Positions 1 through 34,230 of a stretch of 34,230 bases of DNA are shown piece by piece. The DNA lies in IMG/VR virus record IMGVR_UViG_3300035698_023465, positions 1-34,230 of that record; one strand, written 5' to 3'. Position 1 is the stretch's first letter. Every line of letters starts with the position of its first letter. The stretch is from a virus. The translations under genes were made by a program, and so were the position numbers. The notes below the pieces were generated by a model. That model was given only the letters and a program-made list of their open reading frames with translations, did no database searches and was not told where the DNA came from.

Positions 1-127
1 ATTCAAGAAGAAGAGCAACAAGCGCAACAAATGCAACAAGCTCAATCTCAAATGGCATTACAAGAACAAGAAGCTACTATGCAAATGGCTAAAGCTCGTG
101 CTGCTGCAGATATAGGACTTGGTCTTG
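1..127. repeat. Terminal overlap, left copy (circular closure)
   Basis: These 127 bases are identical to the last 127 bases of the window (34104-34230). The reading frame of the portal gene passes through the join without a break, so the window is a circular or circularly permuted genome of 34,103 bp cut inside the portal gene. A length of exactly 127 equals a common maximum k-mer size of short-read assemblers, so an assembly overlap is more likely than a physical terminal repeat. Confidence 0.95.
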
Positions 128-28069: not shown

Positions 28070-28530
28070 GAATAATAAATAAAAAAACAAAAAAACAATT
28101 ATTAAAAGAAAAAATATTAGATTATTCAGAAGAAAAATTAAATAAAGAAGTAGAAAAATTCTTATGTAAGGTTTTAAAGCTTGATATTATAATTGATGAT
28201 CTTAAAAGTGTTATTTATTTTAATGTATCAAATGATGGCAATGGAGTTAGAAGGATAATTGATTTAATAGTTGCATCAGATTGTCCTTTTATGAAAATGG
28301 CGTATACCAATAATTATTCTGATATTTATAATCATAAAATAAAACTATCTCATTATGAAATGAAGCATGATACTGTTGGGTCTTTATTTATTCGGCTATT
28401 TTCTGAAATTGGCTTTATGAATGAAGATGTTTCTAATGATGCATTGAAGCAATTATGTAAAGTTAAGCAGTTTAGAGATAGTATCGGATATATACTTTTT
28501 AGAAAACATAATAATATTGCTTTTGAATAA
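28066..28530 (+). CDS. Unknown protein upstream of the large terminase (154 aa)
   Basis: Starts in an ATGA overlap with the previous stop. The N-terminal 30 residues are Lys-rich (NKKTKKQLLKEKILDYSEEK). The remainder has VLKLDIIIDDLKSVIYFNVS, RRIIDLIVASDCPFMKMAYT, GSLFIRLFSEIGFMNEDVSN. The stop overlaps the terminase start (TAATG), so terminase translation probably depends on ribosomes finishing this gene; no Shine-Dalgarno site is visible before the terminase. Function unknown. Confidence 0.6.
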   Translation: MRIINKKTKKQLLKEKILDYSEEKLNKEVEKFLCKVLKLDIIIDDLKSVIYFNVSNDGNGVRRIIDLIVASDCPFMKMAYTNNYSDIYNHKIKLSHYEMKHDTVGSLFIRLFSEIGFMNEDVSNDALKQLCKVKQFRDSIGYILFRKHNNIAFE

Positions 28531-31500
28531 TGGCTGAGATATCAACTAACACATTTACTCCTCGAGAGTATCAACTATCTTTATGTAATGCATTTGAGTC
28601 TGGGAAGTATAAGAAATTTATCTGTGTGTGGAATAGACGGGCTGGCAAAGACATCTGTGCCTTTAACTTAATGTTCCGTGCGGCACTGAGAAAGATAGGG
28701 GTGTATTTCTATATATTCCCAACGTACTCACAAGCTAAGAAGGTAATCTGGGATTCTATTACAATTGATGGAAAGAAGTTCAGAGATTTCATTCCAAGAG
28801 AGCTTGTTGAAAGAAGTAACTCTCAAGACATGAAGATAACACTCACAAACGGATCAGTGATTCAGCTTGTTGGTTCAGATAATATTGATTCGCTTATGGG
28901 AACTAACCCGATTGGTATTGTATTCAGTGAGTATGCATTACAAGATCCACAAGCATATCAATTCCTTCGACCTATCTTGTTAGTGAATGATGGGTGGTCT
29001 TTGTTTATATCAACTCCTCGTGGTAAGAATCATTTTTATGATTTGTTTAGAATAGCTCAAAACTTTCCAGAAGAATGGTATAGTTCGAAACTTACTGTTG
29101 AAAGCACAGGTGTTCTGTCTAAAGAAGCAATACAAAAAGAAGTTGATGAGGGTTTGATATCAGAAGATCTAGCACAGCAAGAATACTACTGTTTTCCAGC
29201 TGGGCAGTCTGTTTTAAGTTCAAATGGATTAGTAGATATTGAAAATATTGTTAAAGATGATTTGGTTGTTTCTCATAGCGGTAGGAATAGAAAAGTTTTA
29301 GAGACTGTTAAACGTAATTATGATGGTGAGTTATTTAAGATTGTAACTTATGGTTCATATGAGCCCATTATATGCACTCCGGGTCATCCTATTTATACTT
29401 ATGATAAATCAAGTCAGACATATACTTGGAAGAAAGCTTCTGATGTTCTTAATAATGATAAACTAGTATTTCCAAAATATAGCCTCGGTGCTCTTCCTGT
29501 TATTAGTTATGAGCTTTGTATGTTAATGGCATGGTATGTTACAGAGGGAAGTAGTTTTAAGAATGGGTTGAGTTTTACTATTGGAAACTGTAAGTCTGCT
29601 GTTTTTGTTGATAGAGTAAAATATTTAATAACTAAGCTTGGACTTGTGTTCAAAGTATATGACTCTATTGGGTGCGTTAATATAGTTGTAAATAGTGTGC
29701 AACTCATAGATTTTTTAAAGATACATTGTGGATCAACGTCTCATGATAAGAAGATTCCATTTTCATTAATATCAGCTTATGAAAATGATTTTTTTTATGA
29801 ATTAATGAATGGAGATGGTTGTTTATCTATTCATAAAGACCATAAAAAATATTCTTATACAACAGTAAGTAAGACTCTTGCATATCAAGTACAGTTTTTA
29901 GCTCATTCTATTAATGGTAAGTTTACTGCTGGTATATCAAAGAGGGTTGGATCTCCTGTTAAATTTCCTCATGGAAGAACGTATGAATGTAAAGATTCAT
30001 ATTGTGTTCAGATAAACATAAAAAATGATAAGTCTCGAGATTCTTTTTTATCAAGGTCAAAATACAGTATTAATGCAATGATAAGAAGTATTGAAACGGT
30101 TAAATTTAGCGGTGAAGTTTATAATTTGAAGGTTCAATATGATGAGAGTTATGTTGTAGGTGGTAGATCTGTTCACAATTGTTCATTCACTATGGGTGTT
30201 GAGGGAGCATATTACACTAAATACATCGATCGTATGCGATTAAATAATCAAATTGGTCTTATACCATGGGAGTCTGGATTTAAAGTCCATACAGCGTGGG
30301 ACATTGGTGTTCGAGATTCTACTGTAATTATCTTTTTCCAATCAATCGCTCGTACGGTTCGCATAATAGATTGTTATGTAAAGAACAAAGAAGGCCTTGA
30401 GCACTATATTAAGCTTCTGGGAGATAAGCCGTATGTGTATGGAAAGCACTTTGCTCCTCATGATATGGCAGTGAAGGAATTTGGTACTGGTATGACTCGT
30501 ATTGAGAAGGCGCGTAGTCTTGGTATTAACTTCACTCTCTCGCCTAATGTTTCTATCATGGATGGAATTGAATCTGTCAGATCCAGTTTAGGGAAGGTTT
30601 ATATTGATCAGAATAATTGTAAGCCGTTAATAAAATCGCTTGAGAACTATCGTCAAGAGTTTGATTCTAAGAAGAAGATTTATAAGTCTCATCCATTACA
30701 TAATGAGTTTTCACATGCATGTTTTACTGGAGACATGATGATATTAACTGTTAATGGATATAAAAGAATTGATTCTATTGTTCAAGGAGATTATGTAATT
30801 ACGCCTTTAGGTAATAGAAAGATAGAAAATGTATATGTAAGACCTGTAGTTGAATTATGTGATATTAAAATTGGAGATACTTTAATAACTACTACCCCAA
30901 GCCATGAGATATTTAGCGACAAAGGACTTGTCTATGCTGACTCGTTGAGGTATAATGATGTAATAGAACACTATTCATCATTAAGGACATGGTTATGGAA
31001 AAAGATATTTATATATTGTGGAAAGATGAAAGATTTAAAAGGGTTCAAGAAAATTATTTTATCTCTGAAGATGAATCAAAACAAATCTTTAATGGAATCT
31101 GCTTTAAGGTTTGTAACGGAATCTACTTCAAAGGATATGTTAATAGAAAAAGATACTTCATACATAGATTCATTTGGGAATTTTATAACGGAGAAATATC
31201 AAAAGGCTTTCATATTCATCACATCGATAAGAATCCCAAAAACAATAACATTGAGAACTTGCAGCTTCTTTCATCAAGAGAGCATCTTAGATTACATGCA
31301 ATGCATAAAGATAGTTGGAGTAACTCAAAAGAATGCAAAGAATTATTGTCTATCAACAGAGAAAAAGCAAAAGAATGGCATAGAAGCGAAGATGGAAGAA
31401 AGTGGCATAGAGAACATGCATATAGATTCTTACCAACCGTTAGAGGTGATACCTATGATAAGTCATGTGAAAGATGTAAAAAAGAATACAAAGCAAAAGT

Positions 31501-31874
31501 TAGACGTCAAAGATTCTGTTCTAATACGTGCAAAACGTACTTTAGATTTAACAGCAAAGTCGATAATGAAGTTCGTAATTGTTGCATTTGCAAAAGTATA
31601 TTTTTTTGTAACAAATATCTTGCCAAGAAAACATGTAGTAAAAAGTGTAGTAACTTATCAACTTCGAAATCAAAAACTGGTATACGACGTAACAGTTGAA
31701 AAAGATAGCTGCTATTACATTAATGGCTATTTAGTTTCAAATTCGGATGCAATGAGATACCTGTGTTTATCTCTTTCAAAGACGCAAGATGGTATGACTG
31801 AGAAAGATATTACTCGATTAAGATCTGAGGCTCTACACTCAGATTCTGGAAATTTACCTGAGATATTTAGATAA
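28530..31874 (+). CDS. terL: Terminase large subunit precursor with two inteins
   Basis: A 1114-residue open frame; removal of inteins (residues 221-550 and 731-1071) leaves a 443-residue terminase. Exteins: ATPase domain with Walker A WNRRAGKD (34-41), Walker B IGIVFSE (128-134) and LFISTPRG (about 157-164); then nuclease domain with TAWDIGVRDST (first catalytic Asp), APHDMAVKEF and the terminal HPLHNEFSHA-SDAMRYL. Spliced junctions read QQEYY-CSFTMGVEGAYY and FSHA-SDAMRYL, both the normal phage terminase sequence. The enzyme packages DNA through the portal. Packaging requires both inteins to excise, since both sit in or beside the nuclease fold. Start by stop/start overlap with the upstream gene. 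Confidence 0.92.
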   Translation: MAEISTNTFTPREYQLSLCNAFESGKYKKFICVWNRRAGKDICAFNLMFRAALRKIGVYFYIFPTYSQAKKVIWDSITIDGKKFRDFIPRELVERSNSQDMKITLTNGSVIQLVGSDNIDSLMGTNPIGIVFSEYALQDPQAYQFLRPILLVNDGWSLFISTPRGKNHFYDLFRIAQNFPEEWYSSKLTVESTGVLSKEAIQKEVDEGLISEDLAQQEYYCFPAGQSVLSSNGLVDIENIVKDDLVVSHSGRNRKVLETVKRNYDGELFKIVTYGSYEPIICTPGHPIYTYDKSSQTYTWKKASDVLNNDKLVFPKYSLGALPVISYELCMLMAWYVTEGSSFKNGLSFTIGNCKSAVFVDRVKYLITKLGLVFKVYDSIGCVNIVVNSVQLIDFLKIHCGSTSHDKKIPFSLISAYENDFFYELMNGDGCLSIHKDHKKYSYTTVSKTLAYQVQFLAHSINGKFTAGISKRVGSPVKFPHGRTYECKDSYCVQINIKNDKSRDSFLSRSKYSINAMIRSIETVKFSGEVYNLKVQYDESYVVGGRSVHNCSFTMGVEGAYYTKYIDRMRLNNQIGLIPWESGFKVHTAWDIGVRDSTVIIFFQSIARTVRIIDCYVKNKEGLEHYIKLLGDKPYVYGKHFAPHDMAVKEFGTGMTRIEKARSLGINFTLSPNVSIMDGIESVRSSLGKVYIDQNNCKPLIKSLENYRQEFDSKKKIYKSHPLHNEFSHACFTGDMMILTVNGYKRIDSIVQGDYVITPLGNRKIENVYVRPVVELCDIKIGDTLITTTPSHEIFSDKGLVYADSLRYNDVIEHYSSLRTWLWKKIFIYCGKMKDLKGFKKIILSLKMNQNKSLMESALRFVTESTSKDMLIEKDTSYIDSFGNFITEKYQKAFIFITSIRIPKTITLRTCSFFHQESILDYMQCIKIVGVTQKNAKNYCLSTEKKQKNGIEAKMEESGIENMHIDSYQPLEVIPMISHVKDVKKNTKQKLDVKDSVLIRAKRTLDLTAKSIMKFVIVAFAKVYFFVTNILPRKHVVKSVVTYQLRNQKLVYDVTVEKDSCYYINGYLVSNSDAMRYLCLSLSKTQDGMTEKDITRLRSEALHSDSGNLPEIFR
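29190..30179 (+). mobile_element. Intein 1 with LAGLIDADG homing endonuclease (330 aa)
   Basis: Residue 1 is Cys (terminase residue 221), in block A CFPAGQSVLSSNGLVDIENI. Block B is ICTPGHPIYTYD, with the splicing Thr and His. The endonuclease region carries two degenerate LAGLIDADG helices, LCMLMAWYVTEGSS and FFYELMNGDGCLSI, with acidic residues Glu and Asp at their ends. Block F/G is VYNLKVQYDESYVVGG then SVHN, followed by Cys+1. All canonical splicing residues are present, so both splicing and homing look intact. The site lies between the ATPase and nuclease domains. Confidence 0.9.
30720..31742 (+). mobile_element. Intein 2 with out-of-frame HNH gene in its middle (341 aa)
   Basis: Starts at Cys (terminase residue 731) in CFTGDMMILTVNGYKRIDSI; block B is LITTTPSHEIFS; block F/G is LVYDVTVEKDSCYYINGYLV then SN, followed by Ser+1. 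The penultimate residue is Ser, not the usual His, which is known to be tolerated in some inteins. It is inserted in the SHA-SDA motif that holds the last nuclease Asp. Between block B and block F about 220 residues in this frame match no known domain; they overlap a complete HNH gene in another frame. The terminase frame has no stop in that stretch. Confidence 0.85.
30995..31699 (+). CDS. HNH homing endonuclease nested out-of-frame inside intein 2 (234 aa)
   Basis: Encoded in the frame -1 to the terminase. The ATG at 30995 is preferred over that at 30989 because AAGGA (30983-30987) lies seven bases before it. Residues 54-93 are a textbook HNH_3 motif: YFIHRFIWEFYNGEISKGFH, then IHHIDKNPKNNNIENLQLLS, with His75, His76 and Asn88 in place and a basic helix after. 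The C-terminal part has two zinc-ribbon-like Cys sets (CERC...CSNTC and CCIC...CSKKC). The stop TGA lies inside the intein's block F coding sequence. It likely spreads intein 2 by cutting intein-free terminase genes. Confidence 0.85.
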   Translation: MEKDIYILWKDERFKRVQENYFISEDESKQIFNGICFKVCNGIYFKGYVNRKRYFIHRFIWEFYNGEISKGFHIHHIDKNPKNNNIENLQLLSSREHLRLHAMHKDSWSNSKECKELLSINREKAKEWHRSEDGRKWHREHAYRFLPTVRGDTYDKSCERCKKEYKAKVRRQRFCSNTCKTYFRFNSKVDNEVRNCCICKSIFFCNKYLAKKTCSKKCSNLSTSKSKTGIRRNS

Positions 31875-31901
31875 ATAATAATTAATTAATAAGGAGTTTT
31901 T

Positions 31902-32111
31902 ATGAGCCAAGAATTAAATAGTTCATTTGAGGATTTTCCAGAATTTTTATCTACACATGATCTTATTGATCTTGGTATTTATCCAAGTGTAAACGCCGCT
32001 TATGAAGATCGTATTCGAGGATCTAGTCCTAAATATATCAAACTACATCATAAAATTCTTTATCCTAAAAAGTCAGTCATTGAATTTTTGGAAAACAGAA
32101 TTAGTAAATAA
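31902..32111 (+). CDS. AlpA/excisionase-like small DNA-binding protein, copy 2 (69 aa)
   Basis: AAGGAG stands five bases before the ATG. Residues 15-65 (FLSTHDLIDLGIYPSVNAAY, then SPKYIKLHHKILYPKKSVIE, FLENRI) match copy 1 at 26940-27200 through PKY-I/V-L...YPKK-VI. The layout is a winged helix of the AlpA/excisionase kind. It is the last gene before the 327-base non-coding region with palindromes, which may hold its targets. Without an integrase, excision itself is unlikely; a repressor or packaging-related DNA-bending role is possible. Confidence 0.65.
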   Translation: MSQELNSSFEDFPEFLSTHDLIDLGIYPSVNAAYEDRIRGSSPKYIKLHHKILYPKKSVIEFLENRISK

Positions 32112-32180
32112 CTATATATATAAATAGAGAGCTATGTTAGTGTAGAAAGTGTATGAATAGGGAGTTATTCCCAAATTTTA

Positions 32181-32212
32181 GAAGGTTATTGAGTTGCCGC
32201 TCAATAACCTTC
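32181..32212 (+). terminator. Terminator of the terminase operon
   Basis: GAAGGTTATTGAG (32181-32193) pairs perfectly with CTCAATAACCTTC (32200-32212), loop TTGCCG, followed by ATTGTCTTTGTTT. A 13-bp stem with a T-rich tail on the plus strand. It ends transcription after the 31902-32111 gene. Confidence 0.75.
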
Positions 32213-32438: not shown

Positions 32439-34230
32439 ATGTCATTATTTCCTAAGATAGATTCTTCACATTTTAATGATGCAGATAAATCAATATTGAA
32501 TCGCATGGAAAGCTTTTACTCTGACTCGGTCTTAATGAATCAAGAGTTCTGGAGTGAAGCAGACTTAGATACTCGATTCTATTGCGGTGATCAAACAGTC
32601 TGGAATGATGTCTATGGTAATACCTCTGGATTCAATCGCCAGCAGTTCAGTTTTAACCGTATAAGACGCATTGTTGAAATGCCGTGTGGTTATCAAAGAA
32701 AGAATAGAAAGTCTACAGTTGTTGTACCTGTTGAAAACTCTGACCAACAAACTGCAGATCAATTTTCTAAGATAATGACGTGGCTTAACAGGCAAGAAGG
32801 AATCTCGGAGACTATATCTGAAGCGTTCACTGGTTCTATGATAACTGGTATGAATTTGCTACAGGTATGGATGGATTATAGAGAAGATCCTGTCTCGGGG
32901 AATATAAAGGTTTCAAACTGTAGCTACAACTCATTTGTTATTGATCCATTTTTTAAGAAACAAGATCTATCTGATTGTAATGCAATCTGGAAACGTTCGT
33001 TTGTAACAAAGAAGCAAGCTTATTCATTATTGCCTGATAAATATGAAGAGATCGATTCACTTTATGGTATGGGAGCAAAAGATGGGAAGTTTCAATATCT
33101 TCCAGAGAACTATAACAATGATCAGAAAAACTTACTGTCCTATGATGAGTTTTATTATAGAGATTATAGAACTCAAAAGATTTTGGTCGATACTGATACT
33201 GGCGAAACTCTTGAGTGGTCCGGTGATGATGGTGATCTGAAAGAGTATTTATCAATGTACCCATCTGTTACAGCTCTTGATCAAGAAATTCCTACTGTTA
33301 AGTTAGCAATCGTTGTTCAGGGCAAGGTGATGTACGATGGTCCAAACCCTATGGGTATAGATTCATATCCGTTTGTTCCTGTTTTAGGGTATTATACTCC
33401 TGAGCTTCCGTATTATAAGTATAGAATTCAAGGAATGGTTAGGGGTCTTAGGGATCCTCAATATCTTTATAATCGTCGTAAGGTTATTGAACTTGATATT
33501 TTAGAGAGCCAGGTTAATTCTGGATGGGTCGCAAAAGAGAATGCGTTTGTTGATCCTAAGAGCCCATACAAGACCGGTCAAGGTCAAGTCTTGTGGCTTA
33601 AGGAAGAAGCTCAAATGTCTGACATCCAACAAATTCAAGCATCAGCAATATCTCCATCAATGTTCCAAATGTCTGAGCAGCTTGGTAGAGAGATTATGGA
33701 AATATCTGGTGTTAATGAAGAGTTACTTGGAAGTGCTACTGATGATAAAGCCGGCATCCTATCACAACTTAGACAGGGAGCAGGCCTAACAACACTTCAA
33801 AGGTTATTTGATCAGTTAGACTACTCTCAAAAATTGCTTGGTAGAATCGTATTAAAGCTTGTTCAAGCGAACTTTACTCCAGGCAAAGTGAAAAGAATTA
33901 TTGAAGAGGAGCCGTCAGAGCAATTCTATAATAAAAACTTTGGTACGTATGATGCTGCTATTGAAGAAGGATTCGATACTACAACTCAGAAACAAATGCA
34001 GTTTGCTCAAATGCTTCACTTAAAAGAAGTTGGAGTTCCTATTCCGAGCAAAGTGTTAATTGAGGCAGCAACATTACAGAATAAAAATAAATTAATAGAA
34101 GCAATTCAAGAAGAAGAGCAACAAGCGCAACAAATGCAACAAGCTCAATCTCAAATGGCATTACAAGAACAAGAAGCTACTATGCAAATGGCTAAAGCTC
34201 GTGCTGCTGCAGATATAGGACTTGGTCTTG
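32439..34230 (+). CDS. Portal protein, N-terminal part (continues at base 1)
   Basis: ATG with AAGGA eight bases upstream. The frame stays open to the window end and, after removal of the 127-base overlap, continues at base 1 to the stop at 474: 712 residues in total. Early blocks include FYSDSVLMNQEFWSEADLDT, FNRQQFSFNRIRRIVEMPCG and YRDYRTQKILVDTDTGETLE; the core has VRGLRDPQYLYNRRKVIELD, SGVNEELLGSATDDKAGILS and LRQGAGLTTLQRLFDQLDYS. This matches the P22-type portal family (12-fold ring at the packaging vertex) in length, helical order and Gln-rich C-terminal barrel. Partner of the terminase upstream and the adaptor at 5820. Confidence 0.88.
   Translation, partial: MSLFPKIDSSHFNDADKSILNRMESFYSDSVLMNQEFWSEADLDTRFYCGDQTVWNDVYGNTSGFNRQQFSFNRIRRIVEMPCGYQRKNRKSTVVVPVENSDQQTADQFSKIMTWLNRQEGISETISEAFTGSMITGMNLLQVWMDYREDPVSGNIKVSNCSYNSFVIDPFFKKQDLSDCNAIWKRSFVTKKQAYSLLPDKYEEIDSLYGMGAKDGKFQYLPENYNNDQKNLLSYDEFYYRDYRTQKILVDTDTGETLEWSGDDGDLKEYLSMYPSVTALDQEIPTVKLAIVVQGKVMYDGPNPMGIDSYPFVPVLGYYTPELPYYKYRIQGMVRGLRDPQYLYNRRKVIELDILESQVNSGWVAKENAFVDPKSPYKTGQGQVLWLKEEAQMSDIQQIQASAISPSMFQMSEQLGREIMEISGVNEELLGSATDDKAGILSQLRQGAGLTTLQRLFDQLDYSQKLLGRIVLKLVQANFTPGKVKRIIEEEPSEQFYNKNFGTYDAAIEEGFDTTTQKQMQFAQMLHLKEVGVPIPSKVLIEAATLQNKNKLIEAIQEEEQQAQQMQQAQSQMALQEQEATMQMAKARAAADIGLGL
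34104..34230. repeat. Terminal overlap, right copy (circular closure)
   Basis: Exact copy of bases 1-127, in the same reading frame of the portal gene. See the left copy. Bases 34104-34230 should be dropped when the genome is closed into a 34,103-bp circle. Confidence 0.95.

Follow-up and report, generated by a model that had tools for sequence, protein, structure and literature searches.

An HNH endonuclease reading frame nested out of frame within an intein of a phage terminase large subunit gene

Background

Fractured genes with split inteins (of the gp41-1 type) were reportedly described by Dassa in 2009. An endonuclease hidden in another reading frame of its host gene has been found in the ShiLan domain, where an out-of-frame HNH lies within a phage methylase that carries no intein (Arsenault, Gosselin and Gogarten 2025, PMC11855218). 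The TerL inteins of mycobacteriophages have been reported in the ATPase domain (PMC5050341), and the HNH protein of phage HK97 has been reported to act in packaging (discussed in PMC10448857).

Here we analyze a viral genome record (the window, 34,230 nucleotides in all) in whose terL gene the second of two inteins overlaps an HNH reading frame. A sequence-only reading of this locus knew of no standard description of such an arrangement; this stands for a true intein, for which no out-of-frame HNH was found in the literature searched, although Gosselin et al. 2025 (10.1101/2025.01.02.630785), whose title speaks of a "non-canonical architecture", lay outside that search and may describe one. 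For out-of-frame HNHs outside inteins it does not stand, since ShiLan is a precedent (PMC11855218). We conclude that intein 2 is very probably a mobile TerL intein with a compact splicing domain, whose homing endonuclease is nested as a −1-frame gene; its splicing, the expression of the HNH and its cleavage of DNA are inferred. More than 100 homologues, a switch in codon-position constraint and stop avoidance all support the dual coding that had been proposed, in which one frame gives a splicing linker and the other a free HNH.

Organization of terL and intein 2

The first and last 127 bp of the window (1-127 and 34104-34230) are identical, so the record probably represents a whole genome, either circular or terminally redundant. 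The features of terL are given in Table 1. The site of intein 1 is uninterrupted in L001, a relative of the window element that was added by a viral_contigs scan.

Table 1. Features of the terL region in the window
Feature	Position	Strand	Evidence and remarks
terL (terminase large subunit) host ORF	28530-31874	+	phrog_2 terminase match, 1e-22; interrupted by two inteins
Intein 1 of terL	29190-30179	+	Intein_splicing, LAGLIDADG_3 (weak LAGLIDADG domain); element separate from intein 2
Intein 2, terL frame, 341 aa	30720-31742	+	Cys 30720 to Asn 31740-31742, Ser +1
N-terminal splicing (Hint) half of intein 2	30720-30995	+	AlphaFold pLDDT 92-98, intein residues 1-90
Shine-Dalgarno AAGGA	30983-30987	+	7 nt upstream of HNH ATG 30995
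HNH homing endonuclease ORF (putative), 234 aa	30995-31699	+	−1 frame of terL; PF13392 8e-17, phrog_15471 1e-34
Linker part of dual-coded stretch	30996-31631	+	intein frame open; pLDDT 44-77, residues 121-300
C-terminal splicing half, blocks F and G	31632-31742	+	pLDDT 83-98, residues 301-341; TIGR01443 0.0017

The layout read earlier from the letters alone, with splicing blocks at both ends and a −1-frame HNH between them, is confirmed by the motifs and by the PF13392 match, and the positions then given for the Shine-Dalgarno (SD) sequence, ATG, stop and AAAAAG run all hold on recheck. Intein 2 is inserted in the TerL nuclease-domain motif (SHA/SDAMRY, the slash marking the insertion point) and has the residues that define a class 1 intein, namely C1, T59, H62, N341 and Ser +1. 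Among 56 aligned inteins C1, the block B TxxH (T59, H62) and the terminal N341 are invariant, and Intein_splicing (PF14890) matches 55 of the 56. The nearest solved sequence relative is the gp41-1 intein (4e-20), and Foldseek matches the Hint halves to inteins and intein-like domains (down to 5e-07). Together the AlphaFold model and the Foldseek matches predict the expected Hint fold built from two halves; in the model, for which alignments were built from viral_contigs rows only, the two halves are confident and most of the linker between them is of low confidence. The intein is not split, its halves sharing one open frame in the window, and the usual in-frame endonuclease is lacking, the HNH being in the −1 frame. 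The C-terminal splicing half overlaps the 3′ end of the HNH ORF, whose TGA stop (31697-31699) falls within intein block F (VYDVTVE).

The HNH protein has a confidently predicted fold (pLDDT 91.3) and carries two Cys4 zinc-binding motifs downstream of the HNH core; H75, H76, N84 and eight Cys are invariant among 40 aligned HNH proteins. It thus combines an HNH core bearing the catalytic His/Asn with DNA-binding/zinc parts, as a homing endonuclease should, and its best solved relative is I-HmuI (1u3e; sequence E 0.0027, fold E 0.014, probability 1.00).

Two other families, phrog_35162 (31182-31757) and phrog_30251 (30693-31763), annotated as terminase or without known function, have matches that span the intein-frame linker, and these matches may partly represent the HNH read in the other frame. 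A group I intron with an HNH ORF was also considered and rejected, as no Rfam match at E ≤ 1 was found in 28400-32200.

Recurrence in other phages and assemblies

Loci of the same dual type were gathered by viral_contigs scans and by HMMs for the HNH and both splicing blocks, and the absence of intein-frame stops played no part in their selection. They number 129, of which 111 are distinct and 102 non-redundant. All 111 distinct dual inteins carry the HNH in the −1 frame and are free of stops in the intein frame. The search for homologous two-frame terminase inteins that the sequence-only reading had called for was thus amply answered, and terminase-frame stops in dual-type homologues, which it had named as refuting, were not found. 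Compensating indels, its other proposed refutation, cannot explain the layout because 111 distinct elements share it, an argument that rests on homologues and not on reads.

An HNH-only scan gave 79 new loci, 47 of them dual-type, not yet counting loci with diverged C blocks, and no in-frame HNH within an intein was found among the 173 loci classified. The scans favor relatives of their queries, so these prevalence figures are not census values. By tblastn of the HNH against phage records the layout was found in Tetrasphaera phage TJE1, Acinetobacter phage Highwayman, Rhodobacteraceae phage MD07 and a faecal phage record; the annotation of the three named phages has the terminase only and misses the HNH. 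No Mycobacterium phage was among the matches listed in two HNH searches of phage records. With the intein frame as query, tblastn in phages gave one match only, which is in keeping with a poorly conserved linker, and a single-protein scan of viral_contigs gave none. Inserts of dual loci lie at or near the TerL nuclease motif (H..DA.RY), and TerL families match the N-exteins of all 10 divergent loci tested.

The dual element is also present in prokaryotic assemblies (L254, L257, L258, L260, L263, L267 and L269), with carriers that include Bacteroides, Nitrospiraceae, Patescibacteria and a Thermoplasmatales MAG. The sequences concerned may represent proviruses or viral contigs. The Thermoplasmatales copy (L258:3717-4691) lies on a contig whose title gives it as an archaeal MAG chromosome. 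Two further loci are unusual. At L062:3800-4800 the intein frame is open and the HNH is apparently in the +1 phase, the sole such case seen, and L142:3580-4700 holds a two-frame intein in a phage that seemingly reads TGA as glycine, where both frames are open only under that reading.

Stop avoidance and constraint on the two frames

The sequence-only reading took the open terL frame across the overlap to be unlikely by chance. For the window alone this was overstated: synonymous permutation of its HNH gives 3.1 expected terL-frame stops, P(0) = 0.017, and genome codon usage gives 4.4, P(0) = 0.0056, so that the single locus is only suggestive. Across its relatives the claim is decisively upheld. 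The 102 non-redundant dual HNHs have 0 intein-frame stops against 234.6 expected under synonymous permutation, whereas the 31 HNHs that are free-standing or split contain 192 where 203 would be expected and show no stop avoidance. A Met followed by a residue with an obligatory A-starting codon, a pair that forces an intein-frame TGA, never occurs in dual HNHs, as compared with 4.9 such pairs per 1000 aa in free or split HNHs (Fisher p = 5e-19, a nominal value because the loci are related).

Substitutions in eight close pairs point the same way. Mismatch rates at intein codon positions 1, 2 and 3 are 0.043, 0.033 and 0.127 in the N block (chi-square p = 8e-13) and 0.030, 0.080 and 0.038 in the overlap (p = 1e-10), in which HNH position 3 coincides with intein position 2; in the C block the peak is back at intein position 3, on few sites. 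This shift of the fast position means that the constrained frame switches to the HNH and then back. The proposed comparison of constraint in each frame therefore comes out as dual coding would have it, HNH position 3 being fastest in the overlap and intein position 3 in the splicing blocks, and the absence of stops together with the codon-position switch bears out the claim that selection keeps both frames open. As far as sequence comparison can establish it, both frames are kept open, and the HNH is the conserved frame in the overlap.

These data also bear on whether the arrangement is merely a pseudogene or artefact, in which a once in-frame HNH was displaced by indels or assembly errors and the other frame is open by chance. 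The window taken singly leaves some room for this, its open frame having a P of only 0.006-0.017, but one phase is shared by 111 distinct elements, found on independent contigs and in named phages, the catalytic and zinc residues are invariant, and HNH third-position substitutions dominate the overlap. We find this explanation scarcely credible; chance, artefact and pseudogene are rejected on the stop avoidance and the third-position substitutions.

What the intein frame itself encodes in the overlap is less conserved. Among 75 aligned dual elements its identity there is 0.213 vs. 0.205 in HNH-synonymous, stop-free permutations, a small but statistically clear excess (z = 11.9) that may reflect relatedness. 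With identity so near the permutation level, the linker appears, from sequence, to be constrained to little more than being stop-free.

Expression of the nested HNH

A start codon is present in the right stretch in 109 of the 111 dual elements, both exceptions being decayed copies. In the window another ATG, at 30989, follows the AAGGA by only 1 nt. First HNH starts are preceded by an SD of at least 6 nt in 12% of cases vs. 0.4% for other intein ATGs, and by one of at least 5 nt in 28% vs. 3.5%, while about half of them lack an SD of even 4 nt.

The alternative route raised earlier is programmed −1 frameshifting at AAAAAG (30999-31004), by which the HNH would be made fused to the N-terminal intein half. 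The run is in the right stretch and the HNH phase is always −1, but it is read in frame as G AAA AAG, which is no canonical −1 heptamer, and canonical heptamers occur in the relevant stretch of only 23 of 102 relatives. Moreover, in 96 of 102 the HNH frame meets a stop within about 66 nt of where the N block ends. Start codons are nearly universal, often with an SD, and frameshifting is not needed. The proposal is unsupported and in our judgment quite improbable, and internal initiation is favored, with expression itself inferred.

Mobility, decay and related states

The closest terL relatives are 67-83% identical to the window across the segment 30183-30719. Among 80 close terL relatives of the window, the site is empty in 70, occupied by the element in 4 and unclear in 6; the nearest (L174, 83%) has an empty site, SHMADASRY. 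Empty alleles, expected for a class 1 intein, are thus abundant. Decayed copies also exist. L001 has lost its HNH through an in-frame TAA and a 20-codon gap that deletes the HIHH motif, with its intein frame still open, and L105 likewise has a decayed HNH in an intact intein frame; only an HNH remnant is left in L105 and L106, and L117 has no HNH.

In many phages free-standing HNH relatives adjoin terL, and in some loci (L014, L033, L067, L087, L094, L256, L259, L264, L266 and L282) a terL that looks split at this same site has the HNH between intein halves. Regex motifs for the intein halves found almost none in the free and partial loci, and rebuilt HMMs found halves. Both the split and the free terL-side HNHs are kin of the nested HNH. 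The HNH tree cannot be explained with fewer than 13 switches between the nested state and the rest, and supported branches force 5 of these; only 28 of its 132 branches are well supported. The pattern is in keeping with movement among free, split and nested states at a single target site, the direction of which is not shown. We consider it reasonably probable that these loci represent a widespread class of dual-coded true inteins, with a −1 nested HNH and an intein frame kept little more than stop-free, found in phage terL genes and prokaryotic assemblies, and with HNHs shared with free-standing and split-intein neighbors at the same terL site.

We propose that translation in the terL frame would give a TerL precursor containing the intein, whose two Hint halves would come together, with the long and largely disordered linker between them, to excise the intein and restore TerL, as inferred from the motifs and predicted fold. 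Ribosomes initiating at the internal ATG would make the free HNH nuclease, an inference from the start codons and the enrichment of SD sequences. This nuclease would cut the intein-free terL of co-infecting phages at the conserved nuclease-motif codons, a cleavage site placed from the insertion site only. Repair would then copy the intein and its nested gene into the cut allele. Homing by the HNH is inferred because of the empty sites, the sporadic presence of the element and the HNH family.

An argument against this explanation is that HNHs near terL can serve packaging, as discussed for HK97 (PMC10448857). The nested HNH could likewise be kept in terL for packaging with the terminase and not as a homing enzyme, and both the known terminase-adjacent packaging HNHs and the free-standing relatives beside terL would suit such a role. 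However, the insert is absent from 70 of the 80 close relatives, inteins whose HNH is missing or decayed persist, and the best solved relative, I-HmuI, is a homing enzyme, so a packaging role seems to us unlikely, and homing remains the preferred interpretation.

Comparison with known systems

Besides being fused in frame or lying in a split "fractured gene", a homing endonuclease would here have a third way to reside within an intein. The arrangement suggests how a free-standing nuclease gene can colonize a mini-intein with splicing unbroken, and it offers a clear example from nature of overlapping genes where a protein function is carried by one frame and the other is mainly kept open. Because cultured phages carry it (Tetrasphaera TJE1 and, apparently, Acinetobacter Highwayman), the two-frame intein is testable.

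Like ShiLan, intein 2 is a mobile insert in a phage gene whose host frame stays open and hides a zinc-finger HNH in the third (−1) frame, its stop codon at the end of the insert; the ShiLan hallmark of a −1-frame HNH concealed in an open host frame is therefore met. The ShiLan host gene is, however, a methylase, no intein blocks were found in its insert, which is thought to stay in the protein, and its HNH has a GTG start with no SD found, whereas the HNH of intein 2 has an ATG and AAGGA. The absence of splicing signals that marks ShiLan does not apply here, the host frame being a canonical intein.

With canonical inteins (e.g., PI-SceI and those of mycobacteriophage TerL, PMC5050341) our element shares an endonuclease that interrupts the Hint domain, and TerL is a favored host; the endonuclease is in frame in those inteins and in the −1 frame here. 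The mycobacteriophage TerL inteins also differ in lying in the ATPase domain, and those described here lie at the TerL nuclease motif. Fractured genes are similar in that gp41-1 is the nearest solved splicing domain, an endonuclease gene lies between the intein halves, and split terL genes with the same HNH family exist (L014, L033, L067, L087 and L094). Unlike in fractured genes, the halves here are joined by an open frame running through the endonuclease gene, and splicing would thus be in cis. Finally, the I-HmuI/HNH_3 homing endonucleases of phages belong to the same catalytic family and include free-standing relatives beside terL, but these enzymes are encoded free or within introns, whereas the HNH described here is nested out of frame in an intein.
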